In this document: one piece after another, positions 24,585 through 36,973 of the stretch | Layout of the letters: each line of letters begins with the position of its first letter | How positions within the stretch are numbered: the stretch's first letter is position 1 | DNA from: a virus | Virus record (IMG/VR): IMGVR_UViG_3300044960_000930 | Location: 1 to 43,216 of that record | Strand: one strand, 5' to 3' | Length of the DNA: 43,216 nucleotides | The notes under the pieces: generated by a model | What the model was told of the DNA's origin: nothing | The model's input: only the letters and a program-made list of their open reading frames with translations | Database searches by the model: none | Translations under genes and position numbers: made by a program

Positions 24585-24989
24585 TCAATCCATCGGCGCG
24601 ATCAGCCGCACCGTAGGGAAGTAGGTACGATACCGGCGGACATCGCGGGTTAGCAGCGGCAGCTGCGCCACCGCGGCATGCGCCCCGATGAAGAAATCCG
24701 GGAGCACGCCCGTGCGGGTGCCGCCGCCGGCGCGGTAACGCTGGAACACCTTGCCGGCGAGGAACAGCGCCTCGCGCGAGATGGGGGCGGTCTCTACCTG
24801 AGCGATGGCGAGGACCTCGTTGACCTCCTCCATGCGCAGGAAACCCACCGAGAGTTCGGCATACACCACGTCATTGATCAGCACCGGCCCGCGCACCGCC
24901 GCGGCCTCAAGCTGGCGCTGCGACCATTCCGCCCAGTCCGCATTGTCGGTGACCAGGTCAAGCAGGACATTGGTGTCGACGAGGGTCAC
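24585..24989 (-). CDS. vapC: PIN-domain toxin (VapC family)
   Basis: A 134-residue PIN-domain ribonuclease from a GTG start with GAGGAG upstream. The acidic metal-binding residues are visible as LVDTNVLLDL (Asp5), NDVVYAELSVGF (Glu) and GVLPDFFIGAHAA (Asp); the C-terminus has LPLLTRDVRRYRTYFPTVRL, typical of VapC. It follows the AbrB-type antitoxin gene by 1 bp. The pair is inserted on the reverse strand between the gpW-like and portal genes. It probably acts as an addiction or phage-defence module; VapC toxins usually cut tRNA or rRNA. Confidence 0.93.
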   Translation of the reverse strand: MTLVDTNVLLDLVTDNADWAEWSQRQLEAAAVRGPVLINDVVYAELSVGFLRMEEVNEVLAIAQVETAPISREALFLAGKVFQRYRAGGGTRTGVLPDFFIGAHAAVAQLPLLTRDVRRYRTYFPTVRLIAPMD

Positions 24990-24990
24990 C

Positions 24991-25239
24991 TCACTCCTCG
25001 CCGCGCGTCAGCGCCATGATTTCCTCTGTGGTCATCCCGGCGCTGGCGCGGCCGCGCAGCTTGGCGAAGCGGCTCGGAGGGCGGCGGGTGGTCGGGCCGC
25101 GGCGGCCGACCTTGCTGAGGACCACACGCCCGTCCTCGGCCACCTCGAAGGCGACCGCGCTGCCCGGCTTGATGCCGAGCAGGTCACGGACCTCCTTGGG
25201 GATGGTGACCTGCCCCTTGGTGGTGACGGTCGTGGCCAT
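24991..25239 (-). CDS. vapB: AbrB/MazE/SpoVT-fold antitoxin (VapB family)
   Basis: An 82-residue antitoxin. The N-terminus is a swapped-hairpin AbrB domain (TTVTTKGQVTIPKEVRDLLGI, then GSAVAFEVAEDGRVVLSKV); the C-terminal tail, with FAKLRGRASAGMTTEEIMAL, would wrap the toxin. AGGAGG lies just before the ATG on the minus strand. It should bind DNA at its own promoter; the palindrome at 25269-25287, 30 bp upstream, is the likely operator. It forms a two-gene operon with the PIN toxin. Confidence 0.93.
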   Translation of the reverse strand: MATTVTTKGQVTIPKEVRDLLGIKPGSAVAFEVAEDGRVVLSKVGRRGPTTRRPPSRFAKLRGRASAGMTTEEIMALTRGEE

Positions 25240-28986: not shown

Positions 28987-29229
28987 TCAGGAGGAGCCGC
29001 AGCACGACTCGCTGCGGCCCTCCGCACGGGCGATCTGGATCGGCGGACAGGGCACGTCGCCATAGGAGCAGAAGACGCAGCAATCGCCCGGCTTCGGGCG
29101 GAGCACGGCGCCACACCCCCTGCAGTCGTAGAACCACTGGCAGGCGTCGGTCGGCATCGTCTCCTGCTGCGCATGCCCGCAATGCGGGCAGGTGATCGTC
29201 GAGATCAGGATCGCCGCCATCCGTGTCAT
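28987..29229 (-). CDS. GDCCVxC domain protein (metal-linked)
   Basis: An 80-residue Cys-rich protein from the ATG at 29229, overlapping the MerT-like stop by 4 bp. It has CPHCGHAQ, CRGCGAVLRPK, and the hallmark PGDCCVFCSYGDVPCPPIQ, ending in ESCCGSS: thirteen cysteines in total. I recognise it as the GDCCVxC domain family, some members of which are selenoproteins and which are commonly encoded next to mer-type mercury genes. Here all family positions use Cys, with no in-frame TGA. It may bind mercury or another soft metal. It is encoded on the strand opposite to the capsid genes. Confidence 0.88.
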   Translation of the reverse strand: MTRMAAILISTITCPHCGHAQQETMPTDACQWFYDCRGCGAVLRPKPGDCCVFCSYGDVPCPPIQIARAEGRSESCCGSS

Positions 29230-29582
29230 CCCGCGGCCAACGTGAGCCCGGCCAGCCCACCGCCGAGCATGACAAGGCCAATCAGCGGCAGCCGAAACCC
29301 GGCTCGGCTGCAGAGACCCTCGGTGCAGCCCGGCGAGCCGCGTGGCCCCGTCACCAGAAGTGCGAGCACCAGGGCCGCCGCGCCGCCCCACAACAGCTCG
29401 CGCTGCCACGGGCCGGCGACCACGGCGATGTCGAGCATCCAGGTTCCACCGGCAATGCCAAGCGTTGCGAGGACCACAGGCAGCGCACAGCACGCGGCTG
29501 CTGCAAGCGTCGCGCTCAGCCCTCCGACAGCCAAAACGCCAGCGCCGATCGCACGACCAGCTGTTGAAGTCGACTTCTCCAC
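29226..29582 (-). CDS. MerT-like mercuric/metal transport membrane protein
   Basis: A 118-residue membrane protein; the GTG at 29582 is chosen because GGGAG lies 5 nt upstream, while a TTG at 29633 would add 17 polar residues. It has three hydrophobic segments: GVLAVGGLSATLAAAACCALPVVLATLG with the vicinal Cys pair of MerT helix 1, then ELLWGGAAALVLALLV, then PLIGLVMLGGGLAGLTL. A loop Cys pair (GCTEGLCSRAG) corresponds to the cytosolic pair of MerT. It is probably an inner-membrane importer of Hg(II) or a related metal. No merR, merP or merA is present in the window. Confidence 0.8.
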   Translation of the reverse strand: MEKSTSTAGRAIGAGVLAVGGLSATLAAAACCALPVVLATLGIAGGTWMLDIAVVAGPWQRELLWGGAAALVLALLVTGPRGSPGCTEGLCSRAGFRLPLIGLVMLGGGLAGLTLAAG

Positions 29583-29708
29583 GGCTGTCTCCCGACTTGG
29601 GTCCCTCGGTGTCGTTCGGCTCTCAACGGCCAAAGGTTACGCCCGCTCGGCCCGACTGGGCACCGGCGAGCAATCCCCCCTTTTCATAGCATCGAAGGAG
29701 CATCTCCA

Positions 29709-32471: not shown

Positions 32472-33428
32472 ATGCCCCGTGCCATCGGCGCGAACTCGCG
32501 CCTGCTCATGATCCCCGAGGTCACCTATGGCACCGCGCCGGGCGGCAACTGGCGGCGCGTGCCCTTCCTCTCCTGCAATCTCGGCGCGGAGCAGCCGCTG
32601 CTGGACGCCGACGTCATCGGCCTCGGCGGCAATCGCGATCCCGCCGCACCGTTCTTCGACACGGTCACGGTGGAGGGCGACGTCGTCGTGCCGGTCGACC
32701 TGATCAACATCGGCCACTGGCTGCGCCTGCTGCTCGGCGCGCCCACCACGACCGGCACCAACCCGAACTTCACCCATACCTTCGGCTCGGGCGCGGCCAC
32801 GCTGCCCTCACAGGCAATCGAGATCGGCTATCCCGACGTGCCGAGCTACGACGTCTGTGCCGGCGTCCGCGCCGACGCGCTGGAGATCGACTTTTCGCCG
32901 ACCGGGCCGGCGACCGCGACGATCAAGCTGATCGCCCAGGGCTCGACGCGCTCCGGTTCCTCCTCGGGCGGCACGCCCGTCTCGGCGGCCTACACCGCGT
33001 TCAACAAGGCGCAGGGCTCGATCAGCCGCGCCGGCTCGGCGCTGGCACAGGTCACGGGCGCGCGGCTCGCCTACTCGAACAGCGTCGAGGCGGTGCGCAC
33101 CATTCGCGCCGACCGCAAGATCGAGGGCGCGGATCCCGGCATCGCCCGCGCTACCGGCCAGATCACCGCGCGGTTCGCGGATATCACGCTGCTGACGCAG
33201 GCGCAGAACGGCACCGCGGCGGAGTTCGCCTTCGCGTTCACCATCGATGCCAACCGCAGCCTCACCTTCACGCTGCACGAGGTCTATCTGGCGCTCGCCA
33301 AGACCCCGATCGAGGGGCCGGGCGGCGTCGAGGCGAGCTTCGAGTTCCGGGCAGCCTTCAACGCGACAGCGACCCGCATGATGACGGCGGTGCTGAAGAA
33401 TCAGCAGGCGGGGACGGAGTATGCGTGA
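32472..33428 (+). CDS. Tail tube protein
   Basis: A 318-residue protein. MPRAIGANSRLLMIPEVTYGTAP at the start, then VIGLGGNRDPAAPFFDTVTVEGDVVVPVDLINIGHWLRLLLGAPT, and ALEIDFSPTGPATATIKLIAQGS and KIEGADPGIARATGQITARFADITLL are typical of the phage tail tube family that begins with a PExTYGT element. It is all-beta and longer than lambda gpV (246), without an Ig-like C-terminal domain that I can identify. It polymerises around the tape measure protein. A reverse-strand ParDE-type pair follows. Confidence 0.88.
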   Translation: MPRAIGANSRLLMIPEVTYGTAPGGNWRRVPFLSCNLGAEQPLLDADVIGLGGNRDPAAPFFDTVTVEGDVVVPVDLINIGHWLRLLLGAPTTTGTNPNFTHTFGSGAATLPSQAIEIGYPDVPSYDVCAGVRADALEIDFSPTGPATATIKLIAQGSTRSGSSSGGTPVSAAYTAFNKAQGSISRAGSALAQVTGARLAYSNSVEAVRTIRADRKIEGADPGIARATGQITARFADITLLTQAQNGTAAEFAFAFTIDANRSLTFTLHEVYLALAKTPIEGPGGVEASFEFRAAFNATATRMMTAVLKNQQAGTEYA

Positions 33429-33436
33429 GTCTTTGC

Positions 33437-33760
33437 TCAGCCGCGTCGGCCGAGGACCTCCGGCAGATCCATGGCACCATGCACGATGCGCAGGATCACG
33501 GGCCGCTCCTGCGGGCGCGCCTCATACACAATGACGTAGCGGAACCGCGGCAGGGCGACGAAGCGCACCGGCAGCGGAGCGAGGTCCTCGCGCACCGCGC
33601 CGCTCTCCGGGTGGCGGCCGATGCGTTCTGCCGCGCCGAGCACCGCGTCCCGCAGGGCGCGCGCGGCGGCGGGTTGTTCCTGCGCGATCCAGCGGACCGC
33701 CTCGGTGAGCTCCCGTTGCGCCCGCGGCGTGAGCCGCGCGCGAGGCGCCGATCTCTCCAA
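33437..33760 (-). CDS. parE: ParE/RelE-superfamily toxin
   Basis: A 107-residue toxin; the start is a TTG 2 nt after the antitoxin stop, which implies coupled, low-level translation. LTPRAQRELTEAVRWIAQEQP, ARALRDAVLGAAERIGRHPESG, REDLAPLPVRFVALPRFRYVIVYEA and VILRIVHGAMDLPEVL match the ParE fold, including the FRYVIVYE strand and the RIVHG end. ParE toxins poison DNA gyrase; RelE relatives cleave mRNA. The residues visible favour ParE. It sits between the tail tube and tail chaperone genes. Confidence 0.92.
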   Translation of the reverse strand: MERSAPRARLTPRAQRELTEAVRWIAQEQPAAARALRDAVLGAAERIGRHPESGAVREDLAPLPVRFVALPRFRYVIVYEARPQERPVILRIVHGAMDLPEVLGRRG

Positions 33761-33762
33761 GG

Positions 33763-34035
33763 TCAGTGGCCGCTGCGCGCGGCGAGCTTCGCCTCCGCCT
33801 CGGCGATGATGGCATCGAGCTCCGCCGCGACCTCGTCGATCTCGACGTAGCCCTTCTCCTCACCCTCCCGGCGCGCATCGTCGAGCGAGCGCAGGAAGGC
33901 TTCGCGCTGCTCCTCGCGCGTCTTGAGCAGCTTGAGCGCCGCGTCGATCACCTCCTGCGGCCCGTTGTAGCGGCCGGTCGCCATCGCCGACTGGGCAATG
34001 GCCTCCTGCTCCTCGGTCAGCCGAACGACCGTCAT
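33763..34035 (-). CDS. parD: ParD-like antitoxin
   Basis: A 90-residue antitoxin from the ATG at 34035. The N-terminus VVRLTEEQEAIAQSAMATGRYNGPQEVIDAALKLL is a ribbon-helix-helix of the ParD type (with the GRYxxxxEVIxxAL core), followed by a charged helical tail (REEQREAFLRSLDDARREGEE). GAGGAG lies before the start. It would neutralise the ParE-like toxin and repress the operon. A 16-bp palindrome lies 24 bp upstream (34060-34075). Confidence 0.92.
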   Translation of the reverse strand: MTVVRLTEEQEAIAQSAMATGRYNGPQEVIDAALKLLKTREEQREAFLRSLDDARREGEEKGYVEIDEVAAELDAIIAEAEAKLAARSGH

Positions 34036-34059
34036 CGCAATCTCCTCAGCCCAAGCTGT

Positions 34060-34075: not shown

Positions 34076-34111
34076 GCGCGGACCCATGTTTCCCTCGGAG
34101 GCCACCTTAGC

Positions 34112-34489
34112 ATGCTCGCCCTGGACCTTCCCACCGAGCCGTACTGGCTCGACCTGCCGCGCGGCGTGCGCGTCGAGATCCGGCCCGTGACAACCGCCGT
34201 CATGGCCGCCGCCCAGGCAGCCGCCGCGCGCCGCCTCGCCGCGATCCGCATCGCCGATCCGGACCTCGACCCCGACATGTCCCGCGGTTTGTCCTTCGCC
34301 TTCCTGGTCAAGGCGCTGGCCCGCCACGCCGTCACCGCCTGGGACGGCATCGGCGATGCGGCTGGCAAGCCGCTGCCGCTCACGCCCGAGGCGGTCGAGC
34401 GCCTGATGGACCTCGACGACATCGCCGCCGCGTTCTGGGATCTCGCCACCGCCCCCGTCGCGGCGGTGGCCGCCGAGGGAAACGGCTGA
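34112..34489 (+). CDS. Tail assembly chaperone (gpG-like)
   Basis: A 125-residue protein with CGGAGG upstream of the ATG at 34112. YWLDLPRGVRVEIRPVTTAVM, FAFLVKALARHAVTAWDGIG and LTPEAVERLMDLDDIAAAFWDLAT match the pattern of siphoviral tail chaperones (small, acidic, helical, with an AWDGIG-like turn). Its position between tail tube and tape measure is that of lambda G. Its last codons contain the frameshift site, so it also serves as the N-terminal part of a longer product (see 34112-34803). Confidence 0.85.
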   Translation: MLALDLPTEPYWLDLPRGVRVEIRPVTTAVMAAAQAAAARRLAAIRIADPDLDPDMSRGLSFAFLVKALARHAVTAWDGIGDAAGKPLPLTPEAVERLMDLDDIAAAFWDLATAPVAAVAAEGNG

Positions 34490-34803
34490 GGGCTCGCGCC
34501 GCCTGGCACTTCGGCCGCGGGCCCGAATACTGCCGCGGCTGCGCTGCCCTCGGCCGTGATTGCGCTGACGCCTGCCCCTACGCCGCGCACGCCCCCACGA
34601 GCGTCGAGGGCCACGGCTGCTGGGCCGCCGGCACCGCCTGCGCCGAGGTCACCATGGCCGGCCTGACGCTCGACACCGCTGGCGCGCTCGCCGCGGCGCG
34701 CGAACTGGGCGCTGGCGGCTGGGCCGCCGCCGAACTGCTGCTCGCCATCCGCATCGGCATGGCCGAGGGCAGCGCCGCCCGCCGCGACGGGGAGACGACC
34801 TGA
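34112..34803 (+). CDS. Tail assembly chaperone GT frameshift product
   Basis: A predicted 230-residue fusion made by -1 ribosomal frameshifting: 124 residues read in the gpG frame to 34483, then 106 residues in the -1 frame from 34483 to the TGA at 34801. The second part is fully open for 106 codons and has no start codon of its own before an internal ATG at 34654. It begins RLRARAAWHFGRGPEYC, is Cys-rich (CRGCAALGRDCADACPY, GHGCWAAGTAC) and ends in two helices (LDTAGALAAARELGAGG, AAELLLAIRIGM). The tape measure start follows after 1 bp. In lambda, G and GT bind tape measure and tube proteins for assembly; the same role is inferred. Confidence 0.85.
34477..34524 (+). promoter_or_regulatory. 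-1 programmed ribosomal frameshift signal
   Basis: The slippery heptamer GGGAAAC at 34477-34483 is in the correct X-XXY-YYZ phase with the gpG frame (G GGA AAC), two codons before the TGA stop. Lambda uses GGGAAAG at the same place. Six nucleotides downstream GGGCTCGCG (34490-34498) can pair with CGCGGGCCC (34516-34524) as a 9-bp stem with one G-U pair and a 17-nt loop, the spacing expected of a stimulatory stem-loop. Confidence 0.85.
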
Positions 34804-34804
34804 C

Positions 34805-36973
34805 ATGGCCGACGCCACCCGCCGCGTCTCGGTCCGCCTCTCGCTGGACGACGCCGCCCGGGTCAAGGCCGGGCTGCGCGAGGTCGGGGAGACCGGCCAG
34901 CGCTCCCTCGACCAGATCAAGGGCGGCGCCGAGCGTGCGTCCCGCTCGCTCGAACTGCTGGACGTCGCCACGCGCGGCATCCAGATCGCCGGCGTGGCGG
35001 TCGCCGCGCGCGCCCTCGTCCAGGCCGGCGATGCGCTGACCCAGGGCCTGTCGCGCCTGCAGAACGCCACCGGCTCGGTCGAGCGCGCCGGGCAGGTCTA
35101 CGAGGCGCTCTACCGCAACGCCCTCTCCACCGGCGTCGCAGTGTCGGAGAGCGTCGACGCCTTCCAGCGCTTCTCGATCGCCGCGCGCGAGATCGGTGCT
35201 ACCTCCGACCAGGTGGTGCGCCTCGTCGGCGGGCTGCAGCGCGTCGCCATCGTCTCCGGCGCCTCCACCCAGGAAATCTCGTCGGCCACGCTGCAGCTCG
35301 CCCAGGCGCTCGCCTCCGGCGTGCTGCAGGGCGACGAGCTGCGCTCCATCCTCGAGGCCATGCCACTGCTGGCCGAGGGGCTGGCGCGCGAGCTCGGCGT
35401 CTCGATCGGCGAACTGCGCAAGCTCGGCAGCGAGGGCCGCCTCACCGCCGAGCGGGTGTTCCCGGCGCTGCTGCGCGCCACGGAACGTCTCGGCGCCGAG
35501 CTCGACCGCGCCCCGCTCTCGCTCGGCCGCGCCTTCGGGCAGCTGACGGCCGCCACGGAGAATTTCCTCGGCCAGCTCGACCGTGCCATCGGCCTGTCCA
35601 ACGCGCTGGCCCGCGCGCTCTCCGCGGCCGCCCGCGCGGTGGACAGCGTCCGCCAGGGCGCCGGGCTGCGCAGCGAGGAGGAACGCCTCGCTGGCCTGCG
35701 CCGCCAGGCCGAGGCGCTGTCGGCGCAGATCGGCCGGCTGGAGAGCCAGCAGGACGGCCGCGCCAGCCTTACTGCCCCGGTCCGCCGCGGCAGCATCCGG
35801 CCTGGCCTGGTCGGCACCGCCGAGCAGCAGGCCGGGGTGGATCGCGCAGCCCGGCTGGAGGAGTTGCGCCGGCAGTACACGGAGCTGCAGGCCGAGATCA
35901 CCCGCGGCGAGCAGGCCGCCGGTGAGCGCCAGCGCAGCGAGCAGGAGAGCGCCGCCGCTGCCGCGGCCGAGGCTCGTCGTCGCCGCGCCACGCAGGACGT
36001 CCAGGACCTCACCCGCGACCTCGACGACCGCTTCCGGATCAACCGGGAGTACGAGGAACGGGTCCGCCGGCTCCGGGAGGCGGAGGCGGCCGGCGGCGTC
36101 ACCGCCGCCGAGCGCACCCGCCTCGAAACGCTGGCGCTGCAGGAGCGCGACGAGGCGCTGCGCCGGCTCGAGCCACGCGTCGCGGCGGTGCGCCGCGCTG
36201 GCAACGAGGGCGCCCGCGAGGCGCGCGAGGCCGAGCGTGAGATCAACGAGATCCTGCGCGAGCGCGAGCGCCTGATCCAGGACAACGAGACCGCCTACGA
36301 GCGCTACCAGCGCCGGCTGGAGCGGCTCTCCGACCTGGTGGTCCGGTCGGAGCGCATTGGCCGCCCCGTTCCCGACGCCACCGTGCAGCGCGAGGCCGAG
36401 CGGGCGCTGGAGGAGCTGGAGCGGGCCGAGCGGCGGGTCGCGGAGGGTGCCGAGCGGACCTCCGAGACGGTGCGCGAGCTCGGGCCCAGCTTCAGCAGCG
36501 CCTTCGAGGACGCGGTGGTCAAGGGCGAGAAGCTCTCGAAGGTGCTGCAGGGCCTGCTGCAGGACATCGCCCGCATCATCGCCCGCCGGACCATCACCGA
36601 GCCGCTCGGCAACGCCGTCTCGGCCGGGCTCACCAGCCTCGGCGCCGGCAGCTGGTTCGACGGCATCGGCTCCTGGCTCGGCGGGCTGTTCCGCGCCGAG
36701 GGCGGGCCGGTCGCGGCCGGCCAGCCCTACATCGTCGGCGAGCGCGGGCCCGAATGGTTCGTGCCGGACCGCGGCGGGACGGTGCTGCCGAATGGCATGG
36801 CGCCGGGCGGGCCGATCATCCAGCAGACCATCAACATCGACGCGCGCGGCGCCGATGCCGGCGTCGAGGCGCGGCTGAGGCTGCTCGCCGGGCAAATCGC
36901 GCGCCAGGCCTCGGCCATGACGCTGGATGCCATCCGCCGCGGCGGCAGCGCCTACGAGACGGTGCGGGGGTAG
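34805..36973 (+). CDS. Tail tape measure protein (lambda gpH-like)
   Basis: A 722-residue protein. The N-terminal tape measure domain (about 60-280) has VEALYRNALSTGV-like VYEALYRNALSTG, SAATLQLAQALASGVLQGDELRSILE and MPLLAEGLARELGVSIGELR, as in the TIGR02675 family. The centre is long Arg/Glu coiled coil (about 290-560). The C-terminus reads FSSAFEDAVVKGEKLSKVLQGLLQDIARIIARR, then AEGGPVAAGQPYIVGERGPEWFVPDRGGTVLPNG, the lambda gpH-type end. It is fairly short, so by the usual proportionality it predicts a short tail. No peptidase insert is visible. Confidence 0.94.
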   Translation: MADATRRVSVRLSLDDAARVKAGLREVGETGQRSLDQIKGGAERASRSLELLDVATRGIQIAGVAVAARALVQAGDALTQGLSRLQNATGSVERAGQVYEALYRNALSTGVAVSESVDAFQRFSIAAREIGATSDQVVRLVGGLQRVAIVSGASTQEISSATLQLAQALASGVLQGDELRSILEAMPLLAEGLARELGVSIGELRKLGSEGRLTAERVFPALLRATERLGAELDRAPLSLGRAFGQLTAATENFLGQLDRAIGLSNALARALSAAARAVDSVRQGAGLRSEEERLAGLRRQAEALSAQIGRLESQQDGRASLTAPVRRGSIRPGLVGTAEQQAGVDRAARLEELRRQYTELQAEITRGEQAAGERQRSEQESAAAAAAEARRRRATQDVQDLTRDLDDRFRINREYEERVRRLREAEAAGGVTAAERTRLETLALQERDEALRRLEPRVAAVRRAGNEGAREAREAEREINEILRERERLIQDNETAYERYQRRLERLSDLVVRSERIGRPVPDATVQREAERALEELERAERRVAEGAERTSETVRELGPSFSSAFEDAVVKGEKLSKVLQGLLQDIARIIARRTITEPLGNAVSAGLTSLGAGSWFDGIGSWLGGLFRAEGGPVAAGQPYIVGERGPEWFVPDRGGTVLPNGMAPGGPIIQQTINIDARGADAGVEARLRLLAGQIARQASAMTLDAIRRGGSAYETVRG

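Follow-up and report, generated by a model that had tools for sequence, protein, structure and literature searches.

A λ G/GT-type tail assembly chaperone gene with a predicted programmed -1 frameshift and a four-cysteine T domain

The prophage-like viral DNA analysed here (IMG/VR record IMGVR_UViG_3300044960_000930, 43,216 nucleotides, hereafter the window) almost certainly carries, to judge from its sequence and that of its relatives, a λ G/GT-type tail assembly chaperone gene with a programmed -1 frameshift. The slip site, a downstream stem-loop, the coding character of the -1 frame and its lack of a start codon can be read in the sequence; from these we infer that slippage occurs here, at what frequency, and what the two products do in tail assembly. 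Frameshifts of this kind are a textbook feature of tail chaperone genes (reviewed in PMC5009743). What is new is a family of T domains with four invariant cysteines; the half that bears them is absent from the models of Pfam and PHROG.

Results

The frame-0 gene starts at an ATG (34112) preceded by a GGAGG-like Shine-Dalgarno sequence (34097-34101), ends at a TGA (34487-34489) and encodes a G-type protein of 125 residues (34112-34489, plus strand). Upstream on the same strand lies a phage tail tube gene (32472-33428; PF18906 Phage_tube_2, E 7e-51), and downstream a tape measure gene (34805-36973; PF20155 TMP_3, E 8e-50). The order tail tube, chaperone, tape measure is that of λ G/GT, as in the original prediction.

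Other genes of the window lie on the minus strand. A toxin-antitoxin pair, ParE (PF05016) with ParD (PF03693), is inserted between the tail tube and chaperone genes (33437-34037), and a PIN-domain toxin with a MazE-type antitoxin lies directly ahead of the portal gene (24585-25239). Within the head gene block, a GDCCVxC-domain protein (NF041374, E 1.3e-32) lies next to a short protein resembling MerT (NF010314, below cut-off at E 1e-5) at 28987-29633, a pair that possibly represents mercury-related cargo.

A match to PHROG 313 (E 3.5e-15), annotated 'Tail assembly chaperone', agrees with the gpG-like identity first proposed for the frame-0 protein, and structural comparison points the same way with less force. 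The best Foldseek match of the protein's AlphaFold2 model (pLDDT 91) is the HK97 tail assembly chaperone 2ob9, a weak match (E 0.25, probability 0.60). A second structural comparison placed 3fgx (Z 5.6), 2ob9 (Z 5.3 over 92 residues) and 3klu YqbN (Z 4.9) at the top; 3fgx and YqbN we take to be phage-derived chaperone-like proteins. Because these Z values fall where chance arrangements occur, we treat the fold as supporting evidence only.

Near the 3' end of the G gene, the heptamer GGGAAAC (34477-34483) is read in frame 0 as GAG|GGA|AAC|GGC|TGA, and thus has the exact G GGA AAC phase that had been predicted; between AAC and the stop there is one codon (GGC), not two as first stated. The -1 frame stays open between 34111 and 34803, and our count of 106 codons after the slip (34483-34800, starting CGG CTG AGG) agrees with the earlier figure. 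Together with its stop, this T-domain extension spans 34483-34803 on the plus strand, and the predicted G-T fusion, join(34112..34483,34483..34803), has 230 residues. The frequency of the heptamer was rejected as evidence in its own right: composition predicts 1.9 copies of GGGAAAC in the window and 2 were found, which is not significant. Since the heptamer is expected about twice by chance, the case for frameshifting must rest on conservation and comparison.

An alignment of homologues, which the original prediction had proposed as a check on the heptamer and the -1 frame, came out in favour of both. We compared 321 distinct T-domain loci, taken from annotated phages, viral contigs and GTDB genomes. 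In 317 of them an XXXYYYZ heptamer stands in phase and abuts the first T codon directly. The heptamer is GGGAAAC in 183 loci, AAAAAAC in 131 and AAAAAAA in three; its type differs between lineages, and its position and phase are constant. The codon that supplies its first base tracks the type, being GAG before all 183 copies of GGGAAAC and mostly GAA (103) or GCA (25) before the 131 copies of AAAAAAC. In a codon-usage sample of 166 Acetobacteraceae-type sequences, GGA accounts for only 1 of 822 other, upstream glycine codons and for 166 of 166 at the slip site, where AAC is likewise present in all 166. Up to the heptamer, third-position entropy follows the G frame, and from there on the T frame, so that codon periodicity switches at this point. 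The ratio of nonsynonymous to synonymous changes is 0.27 in the T frame, compared with 5.9 and 9.7 in the remaining frames; in these counts, as in those of codon usage, related sequences enter separately, and the counts should not be read as formal probabilities. They support purifying selection on the -1 frame.

Four loci break the pattern. In L028, a G to T change in the heptamer creates a frame-0 stop (L028:3360-3380); the copy is probably defective, or else the sequence is in error. L241 has GGGGGAA, itself listed as a slippery motif (PMC10885494), in place of XXXYYYZ at the same position, with the downstream stem retained (L241:1490-1540). The remaining two are rearranged or partial: L292 diverges in sequence just ahead of the T domain, and L264 is a partial locus. 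That the whole arrangement reflects a sequencing error or gene decay, a single ORF broken by an indel as is common in prophages generally and as the broken slip site of L028 might suggest, has a negligible chance of being correct given the identical frame change at the same base in 317 of 321 loci and purifying selection on both sides of it.

The 6-nt spacer after the heptamer (34484-34489, plus strand) holds the frame-0 stop, and is followed by the predicted 9-bp stem, 34490-34498 with 34516-34524, which includes one G.U pair. Three further inner pairs (34499-34501 with 34512-34514) form past a 1-nt bulge, giving a stem-loop of about -21 kcal/mol (34490-34524, plus strand). The outer and inner stem registers differ by one base, and so a single fixed register, which we considered and rejected, fits poorly; we therefore took a synonymous-shuffle test as the main test. 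For 39 representatives below 90% identity, 42-nt windows were folded and each compared with 60 synonymous recodings. The window starting at the seventh base after the heptamer has a mean Z of -2.68, with 87% of the 39 homologues below -1.5, the window that overlaps it and starts six bases before it has a mean Z of -1.99, and every other window lies at about -0.7 to +0.3. The stem in our own sequence has a Z of -1.8, and in four loci (L074, L240, L218 and L255) the stem is hardly or not at all more stable than synonymous recodings. Covariation in the stem, measured on an ungapped alignment, exceeds that of shuffles, although the register varies. Folding energy, shuffles and covariation thus indicate that the stem-loop 6 nt past the heptamer is under selection beyond coding, and make it a putative stimulator of the slip.

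We considered how the T extension might otherwise be expressed. It could be a separate gene with its own start, either a CTG overlapping the stop as CTGA or an internal ATG, translated by termination-reinitiation at the G stop. In the window itself a CTG does overlap the TGA, with GAGGGA 5 nt ahead of it, and the first ATG, GTG or TTG in T lies at codon 58 in many loci. The CTG, however, is lost in 77 GGGAAAC loci, where a TAA stop gives CTA, and no stop overlaps a start in 117 of 131 AAAAAAC loci, in which frame 0 ends well beyond the heptamer. Initiation at codon 58 would discard the invariant cysteine cluster, which lies before it. Further upstream, the T frame of 198 of 317 loci contains no ATG, GTG or TTG from the upstream stop to the T domain, and in 14 loci upstream initiation is excluded because a T-frame stop lies within 12 nt of the domain (e.g. 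CGCTGAGGGAAACGGC in L090). We therefore judge a separate start very improbable. Transcriptional slippage, rather than ribosomal frameshifting, as the source of the -1 product is more improbable still: the AAAAAAC relatives do carry runs of six or more A, but the longest run in GGGAAAC is three, and a selected stem-loop 6 nt downstream in the mRNA fits ribosome stalling.

The T domain of the predicted frameshift product is marked by its cysteines. The original prediction counted eight in the extension; we find six. In an alignment of 34 T sequences that includes Rhodobacter, cyanophage and gut phages, the invariant residues include W8-H9-F10-G11, Y16, C17, C20, C27, C31 and W47. The four invariant cysteines (codons within 34531-34575, plus strand) have CxxC-type spacing, and the pattern is present in 318 of 321 loci; of the three without it, two are truncated. 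Two extra cysteines (46 and 53) are common within the Acetobacteraceae group. Two phages, Nostoc phage Nsp-JY21 and Synechococcus phage Sc-Yong805-1 (L134 and L135), encode identical chaperone proteins that are close to those of the alphaproteobacterial phages here, and their host assignment may deserve a check.

AlphaFold2 predicts the extension with good confidence (pLDDT 92.1, pTM 0.83), as helices around the Cys-rich segment. Neither sequence nor Foldseek searches gave a convincing solved-structure match. Comparison with a viral structure library gave weak matches only, three of them named tape measure chaperones, and Pfam scans gave no match to any named phage T family. Insect pheromone-binding proteins, two weak entries in a second structural comparison, were set aside, as were Fer4 and DUF326 matches to the cysteine cluster, which fall far below cut-off. 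The C-terminal half of T in relatives does match Pfam DUF7697 (PF24752; best E 9.6e-28), at E 0.01 or better in 33 of 53 aligned relatives, and also PHROG 11212. The T of the window has no match to DUF7697 at E 0.1 or better, and its homology to that family therefore runs through the alignment. Both models cover 52-55 positions, lack the cysteine cluster and have no function given. In Nsp-JY21, the annotated second gene begins 40 codons into T. We suggest that DUF7697 and PHROG 11212 are probably T domains that ATG-based gene calling has truncated. A search of a limited literature collection found no paper on DUF7697 or on tail frameshifting in Roseomonas prophages.

Discussion

The heptamer and its phase, selection on the -1 frame, the stem-loop, the distribution of start codons, chaperone homology and gene order all favour the -1 frameshift reading of the original prediction. 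In the mechanism we propose, most ribosomes would end at the TGA at 34489 and release the 125-residue G protein, while a minority would stall at the stem-loop (34490-34524) with GGA in the P site and AAC in the A site. These ribosomes would move back by one base at G GGA AAC, with the tRNAs re-pairing with GGG and AAA, and translation would resume at the CGG at 34483 and run to the TGA at 34803 to yield the 230-residue G-T fusion. By analogy with λ, G would coat the tape measure protein and T would recruit tail tube subunits, with the slip frequency setting the G:GT ratio.

The spacing and invariance of the four T cysteines strengthen the metal-binding suggestion of the original prediction and make them a candidate structural metal site, at which metal binding is plausible and zinc the most likely metal. 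A bolder proposal is that T is a metal-dependent recruiter of the tail tube, using zinc or a redox-sensitive Fe-S centre, and belongs to a class common to alphaproteobacterial prophages and other phages, which Pfam and PHROG represent by its C-terminal half only (DUF7697/PHROG 11212). We offer this tentatively, as a possibility that we lean somewhat against. If it were true, tail assembly would depend on metal or redox state. With the four-Cys domain, a part for metal in building the tail can be put to the test.

These findings offer a function and a mechanism for a tail-gene region that start-codon-based annotation would miss or cut short, and they explain two families of no assigned function as the end of a chaperone domain predicted to be expressed by frameshifting. 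In addition, the large alignment, in which the position is fixed, the heptamer is mainly of two types and a stem-loop is selected beyond coding, is a clean natural data set for studying -1 frameshifting in bacteria at sites with A AAC.

The slip heptamer of λ G/GT is G GGA AAG. The locus described here shares with λ a site between the tail tube and tape measure genes, a -1 slip towards the 3' end of G and an in-phase XXXYYYZ heptamer. It differs in its A-site codon, AAC in place of the λ AAG, in having a conserved stem-loop 6 nt downstream, and in its T, with a four-Cys cluster and outside the named phage T families of Pfam. A point to weigh against the frameshift reading is that AAG slips more readily than AAC as the A-site codon in E. 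coli (A_AAA_AAG compared with A_AAA_AAC; PMC5009743).

The Rhodobacter phages RcKemmy and RcOceanus and their relatives have homologous G and T proteins, GGGAAAC in the same place, the four cysteines and the same stem position. They differ in sequence (about 30% identity in T, 36-39% in G), and their frame-0 product continues about 28-29 codons beyond the heptamer rather than the single codon found here. These homologues are already annotated as a tail assembly chaperone with a joined CDS; the earlier description of the T gene as hidden is thus apt for ATG-based gene calling only.

GGGAAAC has also been predicted as the slip site of the tail chaperone gene gp18/gp19 of Burkholderia phage KL1 (PMC3483164), but the KL1 extension has no cysteines and no evident sequence resemblance to the T described here, and we rejected it as a relative. 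In Caulobacter phage Colossus the same heptamer is predicted in the chaperone gene preceding the tape measure gene, and AAAAAAC in phiCbK-like phages (PMC3556154); the comparison of these phages with the present locus covers the predicted slip site and gene position. For HCTV-1, too, GGGAAAC is given as the site of the g-t shift (PMC5009743). Because the mechanism is textbook, GGGAAAC has these precedents and the Rhodobacter homologues carry joined CDS annotations, we regard the locus as a strongly supported case of a known kind of frameshift.
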